Of a stretch of 64,000 nucleotides of DNA, positions 55,792-64,000 are shown in pieces. Position numbers and translations under genes: made by a program. The notes under the pieces are model-generated. The model was not told the origin of the DNA and ran no database searches. It saw only the letters and a list, made by a program, of their open reading frames with translations. The DNA lies in NCBI GenBank assembly GCA_945881945.1, contig CAMCVO010000006.1, forward strand, positions 1 through 64,000. Reading direction: 5' to 3'. The number at the start of each line of letters is the position of its first letter. Position 1 is the first letter of the stretch. The DNA is from Bifidobacterium breve. GTDB taxonomy: Bacteria; Actinomycetota; Actinomycetes; Nanopelagicales; Nanopelagicaceae.

Positions 55792-56882
55792 GCGTAGAAA
55801 ATAAAGGGGAGATCCGGGTAGCAATAGTTGGAGTAGGAAACTGCGCCAATTCATTGATCCAAGGAATTACCTACTACAAGGATGCTACTAACGAAACCGA
55901 GATTCCTGGTTTGATGCACCCTGTTCTTGGTGGCTATCACATTAAGAATATTAACTTTGTCCTAGCCCTAGATGTTGATGCCAAAAAAGTTGGCTTAGAT
56001 CTAGCAGATGCCATTTGGGCAAGTGAAAACAACACAATTAAGTTTGCAACAGTTGCTAAAACTGGCGTTGTGGTAAAACGAGGAACCACACTCGATGGTC
56101 TTGGCCGTTACTACAAAGAGACAATTAAAGAATCAGATGAGCAAGCTGTAGATGTCGTAGCTGAGTTAAAGGCGAATAAGGTTGATGTTTTGATCTGTTA
56201 TTTGCCAGTTGGCTCTGAAGAGGCAGCAAAGTTTTATGCCCAATGTTCAATTGATGCTGGCTGCGCCTTTGTTAACGCCCTACCAGTATTTATCGCCTCT
56301 GATCCAGTTTGGGCCGATAAGTTCACTAAGGCTGGAATTCCAATTGTTGGCGATGATATTAAGTCCCAGGTTGGCGCAACTATTACCCACCGAATCATGG
56401 CAAAACTATTCCAAGATCGCGGTGTTCACCTAGATCGTACATACCAATTAAATGTTGGTGGAAACATGGACTTCAAAAACATGTTGGAGCGAGATCGCTT
56501 AGAGTCTAAGAAGATCTCTAAAACCCAATCTGTTACCTCACAGTTAGATTATGACTTAGGTGATAAGAATGTGCATATCGGACCATCTGATTACATTCCA
56601 TGGCTAGATGATCGCAAATGGGCATATGTTCGGCTTGAGGGTCGAGCATTTGGAGATGTGCCATTAAATCTTGAGTACAAGCTTGAGGTATGGGATTCAC
56701 CAAACTCAGCTGGGGTGATCATTGATGCACTTCGATGTGCCAAGATCGCCTTAGATCGCAAGATTGGTGGACCACTTCTTTCCCCATCTAGCTACTTTAT
56801 GAAATCACCACCTATTCAATACACCGATGAGCAGGCCTACCAAAAGGTAGAACAGTTCATTGAAGGAAATATTGAACGATAA
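55788..56882 (+). CDS. ino1: inositol-3-phosphate synthase
   Basis: Converts glucose 6-phosphate to inositol 3-phosphate, the source of phosphatidylinositol and mycothiol. The 364-residue prokaryotic form has [16 protein letters not shown] (NAD site), [24 protein letters not shown] and [15 protein letters not shown] 55788 is chosen: it overlaps the padR stop by four bases and follows AAGGA. A terminator follows. Confidence 0.96.
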
Positions 56883-56898
56883 TTAATGTTTGAGTAAT

Positions 56899-56934
56899 AC
56901 CCCTGGGCGAATTAAAGCCTAGGGGTTTTCCTTT
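56899..56934 (+). terminator. rho-independent terminator after ino1
   Basis: ACCCCTGGGC pairs with GCCTAGGGGT around an eight-base loop (10 bp, one G-T), followed by a T-rich stretch. Confidence 0.88.
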
Positions 56935-56970
56935 TCCTACATTTTTTGGGCATGAAGCGGGTAGCAGAGA

Positions 56971-57360
56971 TTAATTCTCCACCACATGTTGAGTGCATAT
57001 TCGCTCACCATTGGGTCCAATAGATAAATGACTGCAAGTAATTCCTAATTTATCAAATGCCTTATCACCAAAATGCGCACGGTATGCCAAAGCAAGAAGC
57101 ACTCGGACATTTACCTCACCATTTGATTTGATGGCAAAGGCTTGAGCAACTCGAGAAACAGTATTTTCAATAACTTTTTCGGTATGAGCGGATTCTTTAG
57201 CGATGGCAGAGTTGGTTAAACCATCACAAAGATGTTCGCAGACTAACTGCTCAAATGGGGTAAGCTCCCGCAGCAGAATATTTACATCCAAACTGACTCT
57301 CCATTGATCGGCGTCTATATATTCTGCTCCTAGAAACCCACTTATTTCAACTAAGTGCAA
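56971..57360 (-). CDS. orphan LuxR-type helix-turn-helix protein
   Basis: A 129-residue protein. Residues about 33-75 (LTPFEQLVCEHLCDGLTNSAIAKES, then ENTVSRVAQAF) match a LuxR DNA-binding domain. No receiver domain is present; the N-terminal 30 residues and a Cys-containing tail (TCSHLS, RICTQH) are not recognised. The likely start is TTG 57360. It is divergent from the enoyl-CoA hydratase gene by 29 bases and may regulate it; that is inference. Confidence 0.72.
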   Translation of the reverse strand: MHLVEISGFLGAEYIDADQWRVSLDVNILLRELTPFEQLVCEHLCDGLTNSAIAKESAHTEKVIENTVSRVAQAFAIKSNGEVNVRVLLALAYRAHFGDKAFDKLGITCSHLSIGPNGERICTQHVVEN

Positions 57361-57377
57361 CTGTGGCGATTTGCGCT

Positions 57378-57383
57378 TACTAT
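57378..57383 (+). promoter_or_regulatory. -10 element of the enoyl-CoA hydratase gene
   Basis: TACTAT followed by six bases and ATG 57390. It rules out the in-frame GTG at 57363 as start. Confidence 0.5.
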
Positions 57384-57389
57384 TGCCAT

Positions 57390-58139
57390 ATGAGTTTTAT
57401 TGAATCAGAGCAGGTTGGCGCAGTTTTGCGCCTTACCTTAGATCGACCTGAGAAGAAAAATGCAATTACCCAAGAGATGTATCAAACCTTGGCAAATAAA
57501 ATAAATGAAGCAGCATCTGATTTTGGAATTCGAGCAGTGGTTATTTCTTCAAATGGTGATTCATTTACCGCTGGAAATGACATAAATGATTTTGCTAATG
57601 ATCCACAAATGGACTCTGGCTCACCAGTTTTTAACTTCTTATTTGCCATTCATAATTTCCCAAAGCCACTTATTGCAGCAGTTAAAGGTCGAGCAGTTGG
57701 AATTGGCACCACCATGTTGATGCACTGCGACTTAGTTACTGCAAATCCTGATACTAAATTTTCGATGCCCTTTGTCTCCCTTGGCTTAGTTGCAGAAGGC
57801 GGCTCAAGTTATCTATTCCCAAGACTGGTTGGCCATGCAAAGGCGGCTGAGATATTTTTTACCGGCCGAACATTTTCTGCGCAAGAGGCACTAGAGATGG
57901 GATTGATTAATTCAATCGCTGAAGATGAATTAGCTGCTGCCATGGCATTTGCACAGGAGATCGCTGAGCAGCCACCAACAGCTGTTATTAACACCAAAGC
58001 ATTGTTAAAGAGTTCATCTCATGAAGCTTTAAATCAGGTGATATTGGCAGAAGGAGAGTTGTTTAAGATGGCCACGCAATCTGAAGAGGCACAAATGGCA
58101 TTTATGAACTTCTTAGCGAAGAAGAGTAAGGTCAAGTAA
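57390..58139 (+). CDS. enoyl-CoA hydratase/isomerase family protein
   Basis: A crotonase-fold protein of 249 aa with LDRPEKKNAITQEM, the oxyanion segment FTAGNDINDF and VKGRAVGIGTTMLMHCDL; MPFVSLGLVAEGGSS covers the region of the catalytic acids. Substrate may be an enoyl-CoA or an isomerisable 3-enoyl-CoA. The start at 57390 is supported by the -10. It shares one base with the SDR gene (TAATG), so the two form a unit. Confidence 0.9.
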   Translation: MSFIESEQVGAVLRLTLDRPEKKNAITQEMYQTLANKINEAASDFGIRAVVISSNGDSFTAGNDINDFANDPQMDSGSPVFNFLFAIHNFPKPLIAAVKGRAVGIGTTMLMHCDLVTANPDTKFSMPFVSLGLVAEGGSSYLFPRLVGHAKAAEIFFTGRTFSAQEALEMGLINSIAEDELAAAMAFAQEIAEQPPTAVINTKALLKSSSHEALNQVILAEGELFKMATQSEEAQMAFMNFLAKKSKVK

Positions 58140-58969
58140 TGACATTAGCTGGCAAGCGAATATTTGTAACTGGTGGCTCACGCGGTATTGGACTTGCTAT
58201 CGCATTACGTGCGGCAAAAGATGGTGCATCAATTGCCATCGCTGCTAAAACTGCTGAAGCTCACCCAAAATTGCCTGGCACAATTTTTACTTCAGCAAAA
58301 GATATTGAAGCAGCTGGCGGCAAAGCCTTGGCAATTCAATGTGATATTCGAGATGAAAATCAAATAGCTCAAGCAGTTGAGCAGGCAGCAAATGAATTTG
58401 GTGGAATTGATATCTTGATTAATAACGCATCTGCAATCAATTTAACCAATACTGAAAATACTCCAGCCAAAAGATTTGATTTGATGATGGGTGTAAATAC
58501 CCGAGGCACATTCTTAACCTCACAAGCTTGCCTGCCATATTTGAAAAAGAGTGCACAAGAGGGAAGAAACCCACATATTTTGATGCTCTCACCACCATTA
58601 TCAATGAAGGGTAAATGGTTTAAACCCCATCTGGCTTACACCATGGCAAAGTATGGAATGAGTATGTGTGTATTGGGATTAGCAGATGAGTTAAAGCGGG
58701 ATGGCATTGGTGTCAATGCGCTATGGCCAAGAACTGCAATTGATACAGCAGCCCTTGCGATGATTCCAGGGGTAGATACTGCATTTTGCCGAACCACTGA
58801 GATTATCTCTGACTCAGCTTACATAATTTTAAATCGACCAGGAAAAGAGTGCTCTGGTAACTTCTTTATTGATGATGAGGTGTTGGCTAGTGAAGGAGTA
58901 GTTGATTTAGATAAATACGCGGTAGTTCCTGGCACAAAAGAGTTTATAAACGATTTATACGTAGATTAA
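58139..58969 (+). CDS. short-chain dehydrogenase/reductase, HSDL2-like
   Basis: An NAD(P)-dependent SDR of 276 aa. TGGSRGIG (11-18) binds the cofactor, INNAS is present, and the catalytic serine, tyrosine and lysine are in MLSPPLSMKG and HLAYTMAKYGMS. The longer spacing and the SPPL motif fit the HSDL2-type subgroup. Cotranscribed with the enoyl-CoA hydratase, it probably handles a hydroxyacyl or related lipid intermediate. Confidence 0.87.
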   Translation: MTLAGKRIFVTGGSRGIGLAIALRAAKDGASIAIAAKTAEAHPKLPGTIFTSAKDIEAAGGKALAIQCDIRDENQIAQAVEQAANEFGGIDILINNASAINLTNTENTPAKRFDLMMGVNTRGTFLTSQACLPYLKKSAQEGRNPHILMLSPPLSMKGKWFKPHLAYTMAKYGMSMCVLGLADELKRDGIGVNALWPRTAIDTAALAMIPGVDTAFCRTTEIISDSAYIILNRPGKECSGNFFIDDEVLASEGVVDLDKYAVVPGTKEFINDLYVD

Positions 58970-60105
58970 AGTTTAATTTCGGTATGTTCATGCTCAGTTT
59001 CCTTGATACCTGAGGAGTAGCGAACCTCATATCTTCCAAGGCGCCAAATTAAGACTGAGATAAGCCAGGCGGCTACAAATGATGCAACTATAAAGTAACC
59101 GACACGATTTAAATCAAGTGAAGCAATGAAAGTAAATGGCTGGTAATTATCAATATTTGTTTTATTTGCAAGTACGCTGACAAATTGAATTGTTCCAATG
59201 ACAAATGCCACAAAGATAGATAAGCCAGTTGTGGTGATGTTGTAATAAATTTTACGAAGCGGTGAGGTAAAGGCCCAGGCATAAGCTTTAGTCATGAAAA
59301 TTCCATCTAATGAGTCCATTAGCGTCATACCGGCAGCAAAAATCAGAGGCAGAGCAATTATTGCAAGTGGTGGTAAAAAACCTCCGACAGTTCCAACAGC
59401 GGCTGTGGCAGATAATGCAAGTAGAGCAACCTCTGTGGCGGTATCAAAACCTAAACCAAACAAAACACCAACTGGATATAATTGTCTGGAGTTATCAAAG
59501 CCTTTTTTGAATGCGCCTTTAAAAACTCTACGCATTAAACTACGCTCATTTAAAAGATCGGTTAAATGTTGATGGGAGAATTTGCCACTTTTTGCCTGGC
59601 GCCAAACTTTAATAATTCCAATAAGGATGACTAAGTTTAGAATTCCAACTAGATACAAAAAAATTGTTGAGACTGAAGCGCCAATTAACCCACCAGTTTC
59701 AGCAAAATCTTTTTGAAACTTAGCAGCTTGTCTGGCAGCAAATGCCACTCCGATACATAGTGCAAGAACAATTGTTGAGTGCCCCAATGAGAAAAATAAT
59801 CCAAGAGCAATAGGATTTTTTCCCTTAGCCAGCATCAGTCTGGTGGTGTCATCAATGGCGGCAATATGATCGGCATCAAATGCGTGACGTAATCCAAATG
59901 AGTAAGCAAGAGCGCCAGCACCGGCGTAAACCAAAGCACCACTTGAATCGGCCAGGGCGCTATATGCTGGATTTGAGTTGTAGTGAATAAATAATCCCCA
60001 ACCAACAATATGAAGCACAGCAACAACAGTTATCACGCCGATCAGTGATGGCAACTCCTGACGGGTAAAGCGAAGGTGGTCCCGAAGTTTGTTTTCTTTG
60101 CTCAT
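58966..60105 (-). CDS. NiCoT family nickel/cobalt permease
   Basis: A 379-residue membrane permease with about eight hydrophobic segments. The metal signature RHAFDADHIAAIDDTTR in helix 2 and FSLGHSTIVL, LFGLGFDTATEVALL and LMDSLDGIFMTKAY identify the NiCoT family. It takes up Ni or Co. No hydrogenase or urease is in the window, whereas NrdJ needs cobalamin, so cobalt is plausible. TAACCT ends six bases before the ATG, and a palindromic operator sits immediately upstream of that -10. Confidence 0.92.
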   Translation of the reverse strand: MSKENKLRDHLRFTRQELPSLIGVITVVAVLHIVGWGLFIHYNSNPAYSALADSSGALVYAGAGALAYSFGLRHAFDADHIAAIDDTTRLMLAKGKNPIALGLFFSLGHSTIVLALCIGVAFAARQAAKFQKDFAETGGLIGASVSTIFLYLVGILNLVILIGIIKVWRQAKSGKFSHQHLTDLLNERSLMRRVFKGAFKKGFDNSRQLYPVGVLFGLGFDTATEVALLALSATAAVGTVGGFLPPLAIIALPLIFAAGMTLMDSLDGIFMTKAYAWAFTSPLRKIYYNITTTGLSIFVAFVIGTIQFVSVLANKTNIDNYQPFTFIASLDLNRVGYFIVASFVAAWLISVLIWRLGRYEVRYSSGIKETEHEHTEIKL

Positions 60106-60111
60106 AACTTA

Positions 60112-60134
60112 AGGTTATTGCAAATGATTTGCAT
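60112..60134 (-). promoter_or_regulatory. NiCoT promoter -10 with Fur-family-like operator
   Basis: The -10 TAACCT (60117-60112, minus strand) abuts TTGCAA-ATGAT-TTGCAT (60118-60134). This fits the Nur (nickel regulator) consensus TTGCAA-N5-TTGCAA and contains a perfect 7-1-7 palindrome TGCAAAT-G-ATTTGCA. A further TGCAA lies at 60136-60140. Confidence 0.65.
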
Positions 60135-60161
60135 CTGCAACTATTTACTAAAAAGCCTTGC

Positions 60162-60167
60162 TAGAGT
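60162..60167 (+). promoter_or_regulatory. -10 element of copC
   Basis: TAGAGT followed by six bases and GTG 60174, favouring GTG 60174 over ATG 60177. Confidence 0.45.
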
Positions 60168-60173
60168 GTCGGT

Positions 60174-60701
60174 GTGATGAAAATTCAGCAGAAAAATTCT
60201 CTGTTAGCAGTTGCGCTTACTCTTTTTATCACTGGTTTAAGCGGAGTGACACCCTCATTTGCCCATACCAACCTGTTGGTGCAAACACCAGCTGCAAGTA
60301 GCGAGGTTGCCACTTGGCCATCTCAACTAACCTTGGAATTTGATGAGCAGTTACAAAATTTAGGTGATGAGAAAGCTAATTTCCTAGTTGTAAACAACGC
60401 AGCAGGAGATCAGGTGAGTGAAAATGATGAAACCCTTGTAGGTAACACAATTACTGTGACCCTCTCACCAAATCAGGTGCAAGGTCCGGTGTTGGTTTAC
60501 TACCGAGTGGTGTCAGGGGACGGTCACCCAGTAGAGGGTGAGTACACATTCACTTATGGAATTGGTGTAGAAACTGCTGAGGGAGTAGTTGAAGAGGAAT
60601 CAACTGAGTACCCAATCGCAGTTTATTTAGCTTCAGCAATTTTTATTGTTTCTGGATTGTTTTTTGCTATCTACTCATACCGCAGAAGAAGCAAGATATA
60701 A
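60174..60701 (+). CDS. copC: CopC domain copper-binding membrane-anchored protein
   Basis: A 175-residue exported protein: signal peptide about 1-30 with cleavage before HTNLLVQ (the mature N-terminal His is the classic Cu ligand), a CopC beta-sandwich (about 31-130, with VVSGDGHPVEGEYTFTYG carrying a second conserved His) and one C-terminal membrane helix (about 148-168) followed by RRRSK. It probably binds copper outside the membrane. It is divergent from the NiCoT gene, and the shared gap holds the operator at 60118-60134. Confidence 0.9.
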   Translation: MMKIQQKNSLLAVALTLFITGLSGVTPSFAHTNLLVQTPAASSEVATWPSQLTLEFDEQLQNLGDEKANFLVVNNAAGDQVSENDETLVGNTITVTLSPNQVQGPVLVYYRVVSGDGHPVEGEYTFTYGIGVETAEGVVEEESTEYPIAVYLASAIFIVSGLFFAIYSYRRRSKI

Positions 60702-60736
60702 AAAAATAATGCCCCGGTGGTTAACCGAGGCATTAT
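60699..60736 (-). terminator. terminator after glnA
   Basis: ATAATGCC pairs with GGCATTAT (60706-60713 with 60729-60736); read on the minus strand it is followed by TTTTTT. On the plus strand it lacks a T-run but could still stop copC transcripts. Confidence 0.75.
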
Positions 60737-60746
60737 CTGTAATCTC

Positions 60747-62177
60747 TTAGAGATCGTAGTAAAGCTCAAACTCAGCTGGATGTGGTCGCAATCTGACGTA
60801 ATCCACCTCTTGCTTGCGCTTGAAGTCAATCCAGGTATCAATTAGATCTTTAGTAAATACCCCACCGCGAGTTAAGAACTCATTGTCTCGCTCTAAGTTA
60901 TCAAGTACGGCATCAAGTGAGCCAGGAACTTGTGGGATAGATTTTGCTTCATCCCCCTCTAGCTCATATAGGTCTTTATCTACTGGCTTTGGTGGCTCAA
61001 TCTTGTTTTGAATTCCATCTATTCCAGCCATCAACATCGCAGCGAATGCTAAATATGGATTAGATGATGGATCTGGACAACGGAACTCAATTCGCTTGGC
61101 CTTTGGATTAGATCCAGTAATTGGAATACGAATACAAGCTGATCGGTTTCTAGCTGAGTAGACCAGATTTACCGGGGCTTCATACCCTGGAACTAAGCGC
61201 TTATATGAGTTAACTGTTGGATTAGTAAAGGCAAGCAAGCTTGGCGCATGCTTTAACAATCCACCGATATACCAACGAGCCATATCTGAAAGATTTGCAT
61301 ATCCATCTCCCCAGAACAATGGTTTGCCATCTTTCCAAAGTGATTGGTGAACATGCATGCCGCTTCCGTTATCACCAAACAATGGCTTTGGCATAAAGGT
61401 TGCTGTTTTGCCAGCTGCCCAGGCGGTGTTCTTAATAATGTATTTAAACTTCATCAACTCATCTCCGGCAGTTAAAATATCGCTGAAGCGATAGTTGATT
61501 TCCATTTGGCCAGCTGTGCCAACCTCATGGTGGGCTCGCTCAACGAGTAAGCCAACCTTGCCAAGATTCATCACCATCTCATCGCGAAGATCTGCAAATT
61601 GATCAGTTGGCGAAACTGGGAAGTAGCCACCTTTAATTCTGGTGCGATAGCCACGGTTTGGTGTGCCATCTGCATCCTCTTCAATACCGGTATTCCAAGC
61701 ACCTTCATAAGAATCGATGTGATGGAAAGCCTGATTCATACCAGTTAAAAACCTGATGCGATCAAAGACATAAAACTCTGCCTCTGGTGCAAAAAATGCA
61801 GTGTCGGCAATTCCAGTACTGCGCATAAAATCAACCGCTTTTGCAACAATGCCGCGGGGATCTCTTGAGTATGCGGTGTTGTCATCTGGATTATGCACTG
61901 AGAATAAAATGATTAAGGTTTTTTCCTTACGGAATGGATCAAGGTATGCCGATGATGGAACTGGTAACAACTTCATATCTGACTCATGGATTGATTGGAA
62001 GCCTCTAATTGATGAGCCATCAAACATTAAGCCATCTTTAAAAACACTCTCATCAAATGATTCCACTGGCACATTAAAGTGATGTTGAATACCTGGTAGA
62101 TCGATAAATCTGACGTCAATCAACTTCACATCATTCTTTTTGATGTAATCGAAGATCTCTGTGGAATTCTTAAACAT
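60747..62177 (-). CDS. glnA: glutamine synthetase type I
   Basis: Makes glutamine from glutamate and ammonium. At 476 aa it is the GSI-beta type. Motifs: FDGSSIRGF, the ammonium/ATP region with [38 protein letters not shown] and the adenylylation-site loop DKDLYEL containing the modifiable tyrosine. AAGGAG lies seven bases before the ATG. A GlnR-like site is about 100 bases upstream. Confidence 0.97.
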
Positions 62178-62266
62178 CTATTCTCCTTGGATAAATTTTG
62201 CTGAAAGAAGGGCGCCTTTGCTCGACTTCAGATGGGTAAAACATAGTTGAAATTAATGAAAAATCG

Positions 62267-62293
62267 GTAAAGCACGTGTTACATCTATGTTTC
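62267..62293 (-). promoter_or_regulatory. candidate GlnR-type site between glnA and the RDD gene
   Basis: On the minus strand GAAAC (62293-62289), six bases, GTAAC (62282-62278), six bases, TTTAC (62271-62267). This is the alternating pattern with six-base spacing of actinobacterial GlnR boxes (gTnAC-N6-GaAAC), with a degenerate third unit. Confidence 0.4.
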
Positions 62294-62323
62294 GTTTACC
62301 CCAGGTGGGCTAGGGTTGCCCGC

Positions 62324-62704
62324 ATGACTTGGGAGAATAACCAGAATTTGTTGCCGGCTGCATCCCTTGGCCGGCGGCTATTAGCCCTGGTGATTGACTG
62401 GACGATGTGCCGGTTGATTGCTGCACTTTTGAGCCCATCGGTGATTCCAGATAACACATTCTCTACCTTGATCATTTTTTATCTTGAGGTCTGTTTATTT
62501 ACCATAACTTTTCAAGCATCAGCTGGACAGAGAATTATGGCTATTAAGGTGGTTACCTATCCAGATCAAATGCGAGTAAAGCCAACAAAGATACTCCTGC
62601 GAACATTATTAATCTGTTTAGTTCTGCCAGCAGTCTTTACCAACAATGGCAGAGCCCTGCATGATCATGTTGCTAACAGCCAAACAGTAAGAGAGCGTTA
62701 CTAA
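62324..62704 (+). CDS. RDD family membrane protein
   Basis: A 126-residue membrane protein with the RDD start ASLGRRLLALVIDWTMCR and GQRIMAIKVV, and three hydrophobic segments. TAGGGT ends seven bases before ATG 62324, which selects this over an earlier in-frame ATG at 62276. RDD proteins beside glnA are common in actinobacteria; function unknown. Confidence 0.85.
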   Translation: MTWENNQNLLPAASLGRRLLALVIDWTMCRLIAALLSPSVIPDNTFSTLIIFYLEVCLFTITFQASAGQRIMAIKVVTYPDQMRVKPTKILLRTLLICLVLPAVFTNNGRALHDHVANSQTVRERY

Positions 62705-62707
62705 ACC

Positions 62708-63412
62708 TTACCTACGTGGCATCTTAAGATTTGTTGGCATTGGACCCTTAGGCATTGGCAGATTCAAGCCACCAACTGATTTCAACCTTGCTCGGACCTC
62801 TCGAAGTTGCACAGTGCTTAACTTCTTTGGCAATTTCTTTAAATGTTTTTGTAATTTTCTTATTGAAACCTGGCCTTGCGCACTACCGACCACAATCTCA
62901 GTTACTGGTACACCAGATAAAAATCTCTCCATCTTACGTTTTTCATCCTGAAGTAATGATTTAACTCCATAGCCGCCCTCACCAACTAAAATGATTCCCG
63001 CTCTGGCAGACACTCGATGAACCATATCTTGGTCACGATTTACATTGACAGCAGGTGTGGTAAGAAAGCCCCGGCGAATAGACATTAGAACACTTGCCCC
63101 AGCACCAACTTGGCCTTCTATTGATGAAAAAGCGGCTGAGTTTGCGTAGCGAGTGAAGAGAAAAAATGCTGCTAAAAATGCCATTGGCAGCGACAAAAAG
63201 CCGGCGTAAATTGGATGACCTAAATTATTACCAATAATAATTCCAAATGTTAAAACTAAAATGAAAACTACCGCACACCAAAGGATTGATAGGGGAGAGT
63301 CCTTCTTAACTAATCGATAAGCATCTTTTACAACCGCTAATTGGGATTGCTTCTTTGGCGCATCAGGTTTGCCAGCAGCAGCTGCTTCCTTCTTTTTCTT
63401 TCGTCCAAACAT
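62708..63412 (-). CDS. DUF4191 family membrane protein
   Basis: A 234-residue protein with a Lys-rich N-terminus, two hydrophobic helices (about 42-90) and a basic C-terminal domain with SVEMSI-like loops (SVLMSIRRGF, VGEGGYGVKSLL) and a proline-rich end (LPMPKGPMP). The family is conserved next to lipA in actinobacteria; function unknown. GGGAGAG lies just before the ATG, and lipA ends nine bases upstream, so the two are cotranscribed. Confidence 0.87.
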   Translation of the reverse strand: MFGRKKKKEAAAAGKPDAPKKQSQLAVVKDAYRLVKKDSPLSILWCAVVFILVLTFGIIIGNNLGHPIYAGFLSLPMAFLAAFFLFTRYANSAAFSSIEGQVGAGASVLMSIRRGFLTTPAVNVNRDQDMVHRVSARAGIILVGEGGYGVKSLLQDEKRKMERFLSGVPVTEIVVGSAQGQVSIRKLQKHLKKLPKKLSTVQLREVRARLKSVGGLNLPMPKGPMPTNLKMPRR

Positions 63413-63421
63413 CTCTCTCCC

Positions 63422-64000
63422 TTACTTAACTGCCCGGGCAGCCATTGCTTGGTTATAAAGCCGGCCGGCTCGATAGCTAGAACGTACCAATGGACCACTC
63501 ATAACGCCAAGAAATCCTATTTCTTCCGCTTCTTTACTCAACTCCACAAACTCATTTGGCTTAACCCAACGCACCACTGGATGGTGTTTGGCAGTTGGCC
63601 TTAGATACTGGGTAATTGTAATCAGATCACACCCCGCCTGCCGCAAATCAATTAGGGCCTGGGTAATCTCCTCCCGAGTTTCACCCATTCCAAGAATTAA
63701 ATTTGATTTGGTAATCAGACCAAAATCTCTAGCTTGGGTGATTACATCTAATGATCTCTCATATCTAAAGGCTGGACGTATCTGTTTAAATATTCTTGGC
63801 ACCGTCTCTAAGTTATGAGCAAAGACCTCAGGCCTGGTTTCAAATACCTGATTTAGTAAATGAGCATGGCCACTAAAATCTGGGGCTAACATCTCAACTC
63901 CAACACCAGGATTTAATTGGTGAACTTGGGAGATAGTCTCGGCGTAGAGCCAAGCGCCCTCATCATCTAAATCATCACGGGCAACACCGGTGATAGTTGC
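63422..64000 (-). CDS. lipA: lipoyl synthase, C-terminal part (cut by window edge)
   Basis: Radical SAM enzyme that inserts two sulfurs into octanoyl groups. Only the last 192 codons are in the window, running open to base 64000. Recognisable segments are [51 protein letters not shown] and [16 protein letters not shown]. The radical SAM CxxxCxxC and N-terminal cysteines lie outside. DUF4191 follows nine bases later. Confidence 0.95.

Follow-up and report, generated by a model that had tools for sequence, protein, structure and literature searches.

A predicted Nur operator in the promoter spacer of an exchangeable nickel transporter gene in freshwater actinobacteria

The window, the whole stretch of 64,000 nucleotides analysed here, carries a minus-strand gene for a NiCoT/NicO Ni(Co) permease of 379 amino acids (58966..60105; PF03824, E 7.8e-79). 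The nearest NCBIfam model is NicT, and the permease scores below the cut-off of that model. An SDR gene on the plus strand (58139..58969; PF00106) is the right-hand flank of the transporter, which is exchanged for another in sister genomes, and the minus-strand glutamine synthetase gene glnA (60747..62177; PF00120) is the left-hand flank of the locus. Between glnA and the permease lies a divergent neighbour on the plus strand, a copC-domain gene of 175 amino acids (60174..60701; PF04234, E 1.6e-17).

On the minus strand, TTGCAG (60140-60135) is followed by the 17-mer TTGCAAATGATTTGCAT, TAACCT (60117-60112), six bases and the ATG start codon (60105). TTGCAG (60135..60140) is the putative -35 hexamer of NiCoT and is kept together with the box across the genus. 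It lies 17 bp from the putative -10 hexamer TAACCT (60112..60117), and the 17-mer (60118..60134) fills exactly this 17-bp spacer of the predicted promoter. Because the -10 is six bases before the ATG, the NiCoT mRNA is probably leaderless. A TAANNT hexamer, then 5–6 nt, then a start codon is present in 66/67 transporter loci that were collected with a strict promoter pattern.

Direct reading shows that the core of the 17-mer, TGCAAATGATTTGCA (60119-60133), forms a perfect 7-1-7 palindrome, and the 17-mer matches TTGCAA-N5-TTGCAA at 11/12 specified bases, with a mismatch at the final base alone. The first-pass annotation had described such a palindrome, a Nur box with one mismatch, directly abutting the NiCoT -10; each of these points was borne out, TAACCT adjoining position 60118. 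Its proposal that a Fur-family operator is fused to the core promoter of NiCoT, so that a bound repressor would block polymerase, is supported by the position of the predicted site in the spacer. The extra TGCAA that it noted near 60136 also exists. It was read as a cooperative half-site, and this reading was rejected in favour of the conserved -35 hexamer 17 bp from the -10, since plus-strand CTGCAA at 60135-60140 is the complement of the NiCoT -35.

A palindrome of this kind is not significant by itself and proves nothing alone. The window contains 8 perfect 7-1-7 palindromes, where 30 dinucleotide shuffles average 5.6, and TTGCAA-N5-TTGCAA is matched twice with no more than one mismatch, against a shuffle mean of 0.9. 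Despite this chance-level count the site is convincing because it is conserved: it recurs at this position ahead of Ni/Co transporter genes far more often than chance would allow. Among loci found by protein, TGCRA-N5-TYGCA is upstream of 22/23 orthologous NiCoT genes (NiCoT-A), 19/19 divergent NiCoT-B genes (19 taken out of the family's 27) and 18/20 CbiM genes of the family (9/10 in the genus, 9/10 in other genera). In other actinobacterial families of the class it precedes 11/16 CbiM and 3/6 NiCoT genes. The shuffle expectation is at most 0.02 per set, and the pattern was found inside 0/23 NiCoT genes. Three loci (L039, L267, L291) have a transporter and no intact box.

The conservation counts rest on these protein-found loci, as position frequencies in the leaderless groups chosen by pattern are partly circular. 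Rows dropped from the count were L047 (truncated), L262 (start not found), the short nur loci L068, L083 and L087, and the short sodN loci L054 and L062; 8/27 divergent NiCoT loci and those CbiM genes that received no locus also stand outside it. Of 296 genomes in the family, 71 contain the strict promoter pattern AGWTGCRAAYSRYTYGCAWTAANNT, and none contains its reversed control. From the named genome collection the pattern retrieved 88 stretches; their titles are mostly Nanopelagicaceae, Planktophila, actinobacterium or freshwater MAGs, although some of these are evidently mislabelled. A NiCoT (27) or CbiM (40) gene follows the pattern in 67/88 stretches; the remaining 21, titled mainly as proteobacteria and firmicutes with one Corynebacterium, have neither transporter. 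The tighter core TGCRAAYNRTTYGCA is found in 19/25 genus genomes, once per genome except for G024, which has two; the match in G022 and the second match in G024 are inside genes, away from any transporter.

In the NiCoT-B group (L232-L250) the box is 67–190 bases before the matched coding start, and several members have an apparent ribosome-binding site. The operator seems in these genes to be at or after the start site rather than in the spacer. The same 15-mer class also occurs before other kinds of genes outside the actinobacteria. Operator-like 15-mers in firmicutes (L148, L179, L191, L194), Chromatiaceae and Lamprocystis (L164, L214) and Erysipelothrix (L180) precede, as judged by eye, lipoprotein genes, FeoA-like genes and one CobW-like gene. 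The half-site may be shared with other members of the Fur family, and the motif by itself does not identify the regulator.

The first-pass annotation had called the site Nur/Zur-like and proposed a search for Fur-family genes. The genome encodes two, one Nur ortholog and one Zur ortholog. The best solved-structure match of the Nur ortholog (C12:2802-3218) is 3eyy, S. coelicolor Nur (E 6.9e-46, 70/133 identical), and the next-best structure matches at E 2.4e-16. In 3eyy numbering His33, 70, 72, 75, 81, 88, 90 and 126 are kept, position 86 is Leu and position 87 is Thr. Among these positions are putative metal ligands of S. coelicolor Nur. The change of His86 to Leu could have shifted the metal preference. 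The gene adjoins ygfZ, which is also the arrangement of nur in S. coelicolor (PMC4531530). A Nur-type box is located 502–704 bases upstream of nur in 20/27 nur loci, including our genome, where the box TGCAAAGGGCTCGCA lies between a thioredoxin-like gene and DUF4395-nur-ygfZ; it was found with the looser published Nur form, tTGCaa-N5-ttGCAA (PMC3919588), and the tight consensus does not match it. Nur is the sole Fur-family hit in each of three sister genomes (G001, G005, G014; 99–100% complete) that contain the transporter site. From the box at the nur operon, the different box at zur and these three genomes, Nur is the likely regulator of the NiCoT site. Of the two regulators in the first-pass name, Nur is preferred over Zur.

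At the start of the nur operon, between the box and DUF4395, a conserved short ORF of about 27–29 codons comes right after the Nur-type box (L064, which is G000:C12, with MFSIQPVFFTKRRVIDFSRAKGCMCWFK, and L065-L092). It is probably leaderless. Cysteine-containing upstream ORFs of mycobacteria (PMC4633059) resemble it, and by this analogy nur may be a point where nickel and cysteine signalling converge.

A close Nur was not found in 14/25 genus genomes, mostly drafts (G002, G003, G004, G007-G010, G012, G013, G018-G021 and G024), among them 9/10 of the CbiM type. Completeness would predict 5.6 missing rather than 14 (P about 1e-4), and NiSOD is missing in one only. Of the 14, 13 retain the box. 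In G062 (94% complete), too, the box is present and the search gave no close Nur. ORF reading of the complete genome G014 places nur within about 4 kb of genes resembling surface-polysaccharide genes. Drafts often lose regions of this type, and as a guess this might account for the missing Nur.

A chance palindrome or non-regulatory repeat would agree with the palindrome count in the window, but position and sequence are conserved across the family and beyond, and this reading can practically be dismissed. Control of NiCoT by the zinc repressor Zur through this site deserves more thought, as the genome encodes Zur (C4:53268-53591; nearest structures S. coelicolor Zur 3mwm and M. tuberculosis FurB 2o03), both types of box are 7-1-7 palindromes of the Fur class, and several genus genomes without a close Nur still give a weak Fur-family hit. 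However, zur follows a ZIP transporter gene, and the ZIP-zur promoter bears a different perfect box, TGATAATCATTATCA, and Zur boxes published for actinobacteria resemble TGAAAATGATTTTCA (PMC2823685). The TGCRA-N5-TYGCA type is instead carried by the nur operon and stands before Ni/Co transporters (NicO/NiCoT), which are not zinc-related, and G001, G005 and G014, all with the site, give Nur as their single Fur-family hit. Zur was rejected on the ground of its own differing box, and we regard it as a very unlikely regulator here.

The metal itself could be cobalt, both as cargo and as signal, because NiCoT and CbiM are families of transporters for Ni or Co and a MetH-like gene was recognised by eye in the genome. 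Against this, CbiC, a shared step of B12 synthesis, was found in 0/25 genus genomes by a search that was positive in control genomes. No Rfam match reached the gathering score within 56000-64000, and control of a cobalt transporter at the locus by a cobalamin riboswitch was rejected. NiSOD, in contrast, is encoded in 24/25 genus genomes, including our own, where the gene for its maturation protease is beside it. Fe/Mn-SOD (PF02777) was found in 0/25, again with a search positive in control genomes. We give the cobalt reading little credence, and nickel for NiSOD is the simplest reading of the metal. The NiSOD gene sodN was itself considered as a target and rejected, as TGCRA-N5-TYGCA is present at 0/9 sodN loci, our own included.

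It is very probable, judging from sequence, that the palindrome is the operator of Nur, a nickel-responsive Fur-family repressor that would switch nickel uptake off. When nickel is sufficient, a nickel-bound Nur dimer would bind 60118-60134, the 17-bp spacer, and exclude RNA polymerase from the NiCoT promoter. When nickel is scarce, Nur would leave and the NiCoT mRNA would be made. The nickel imported by NiCoT would feed NiSOD, the sole SOD type found in the genus. Nur would also act on its own operon, DUF4395-nur-ygfZ, through the same kind of box. Nickel dependence, direct binding, the direction of control and the leaderless start are all points that we infer. Such a predicted nickel switch would operate in tiny-genome freshwater actinobacteria, which are among the most abundant freshwater bacterial groups. 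No earlier report of this site was recognised in the part of the literature that was searched.

The known targets of S. coelicolor Nur are nikABCDE and sodF. Our locus resembles that regulon in having an orthologous Nur beside ygfZ, a box with one mismatch, an operator on a nickel importer promoter (with a predicted start) and NiSOD in the genome. It differs in that the importer is NiCoT or cbiMNQO rather than nikABCDE, in that the nur operon also has a box, and in that the box at NiCoT occupies the spacer of what is probably a leaderless promoter. A further difference is the lack of the sodF branch. With no Fe/Mn-SOD and no box at sodN, inverse control of sodF and sodN is absent here; such control belongs to the S. 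coelicolor targets and is not a property of the regulator. The Nur regulon thus seems to be trimmed in these cells, where the one SOD type detected is nickel-dependent. The actinobacterial Zur regulons reported for C. glutamicum and S. coelicolor are similar in placing a Fur-family 7-1-7 operator over the promoter, with some targets leaderless (PMC2823685). Their half-site is TGATAAT or TGAAAAT, whereas it is TGCAAAT here, and their targets are zinc genes; the Zur-type box of our genome sits at ZIP-zur. NikR is a ribbon-helix-helix regulator with another operator. The NikR-controlled importers reported in other bacteria (NikMNQO, NiCoT) are examples of nickel-dependent repression of the same two families (PMC2667541).

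The switch mechanism itself is ordinary and well supported; the fresh part is the exchange of the transporter in place. Among the 25 genus genomes NiCoT is present in 12, our own included, and CbiM above the cut-off in 10, while none has both and 3 have neither (weak, below cut-off CbiM hits in G007 and G017 were left out). Sister genomes also have this operator between copC and the SDR gene, but there it stands before cbiMNQO rather than NiCoT. The SDR gene is on the far side in 20/22 genus loci whichever transporter is present; the other two contigs end early. Trees of SDR, copC and glnA each require five changes of transporter type, and well-supported branches force at least 3 (SDR), 4 (copC) and 4 (glnA). 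Our genome (G000, NiCoT) groups with CbiM-type G009 in all three trees, and also with CbiM-type G002 for SDR and copC; G003 (NiCoT) groups with G021 (CbiM) in every tree. Judged against label shuffles, the two transporter types show no strong clustering. The regulatory site thus stays while the adjoining transporter gene is replaced by a non-homologous one, a clear example of regulation outlasting the regulated gene. In another genus, at locus L295 (G042:C66:2998-4325), a fragment of a broken NiCoT (residues 6-88, one stop) immediately precedes the operator, which is followed by an intact cbiM. The fragment is likely a trace of transporter exchange.

We wondered about the divergent copC gene, as the first-pass annotation had placed its -10 about 28 bases from the site and suggested one metal regulator for both genes. 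The distance was right: the predicted -10, TAGAGT (60162..60167, plus strand), is 6 nt before the GTG start (60174), and 27 bases separate it from the 17-mer. In all 22 genus loci, those with NiCoT and those with CbiM, copC adjoins the site. Its start lies 37–41 nt from the 15-mer, with TANNNT at -12..-7, in 20/22 genus rows, the two unusable rows being G001 (start miscalled) and G012 (wrong site). About 68 bp separate the two predicted start sites, and polymerases working from both promoters should therefore collide. This fixed geometry favours a coupled promoter pair and makes copC control plausible. On the other hand, seen from copC the box would fall at about -40 to -56, which is upstream of the core promoter of that gene, and CopC is by name a copper-protein family. 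The divergent neighbour also varies once one leaves the genus and parts of a second one: among loci L113-L222, most other genera in the family have a different gene there (EamA-like, SulP-like or others) or none. That Nur represses both NiCoT and copC from one operator, which would extend the Nur switch proposed above, is accordingly a tentative suggestion, somewhat short of an even chance. A broader proposal would make the operator a fixed regulatory socket, with two unrelated nickel importers, the NiCoT permease and the cbiMNQO ECF transporter, swapped several times between copC and SDR in a NiSOD-only lineage and with CopC itself under Nur control and serving in nickel rather than copper handling. 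Taken as a whole it is speculative and rather unlikely.

Other copies of the site were sought in our genome with the pattern TTGCAAATNATTTGCAW. Allowing up to 3 mismatches, 47 forward and 40 reverse matches were obtained versus 13 and 6 for the reversed control. Most of the nine best matches are inside genes, and C4:62176 (1 mismatch, before cysK) alone looked regulatory. This copy, TTGCAAATCATTTGCGT (L004, G000:C4:62176-62192), is upstream of cysK and is followed by a short ORF with Cys codons and an FTRRRVIDF motif, the same as in the short ORF of the nur operon.
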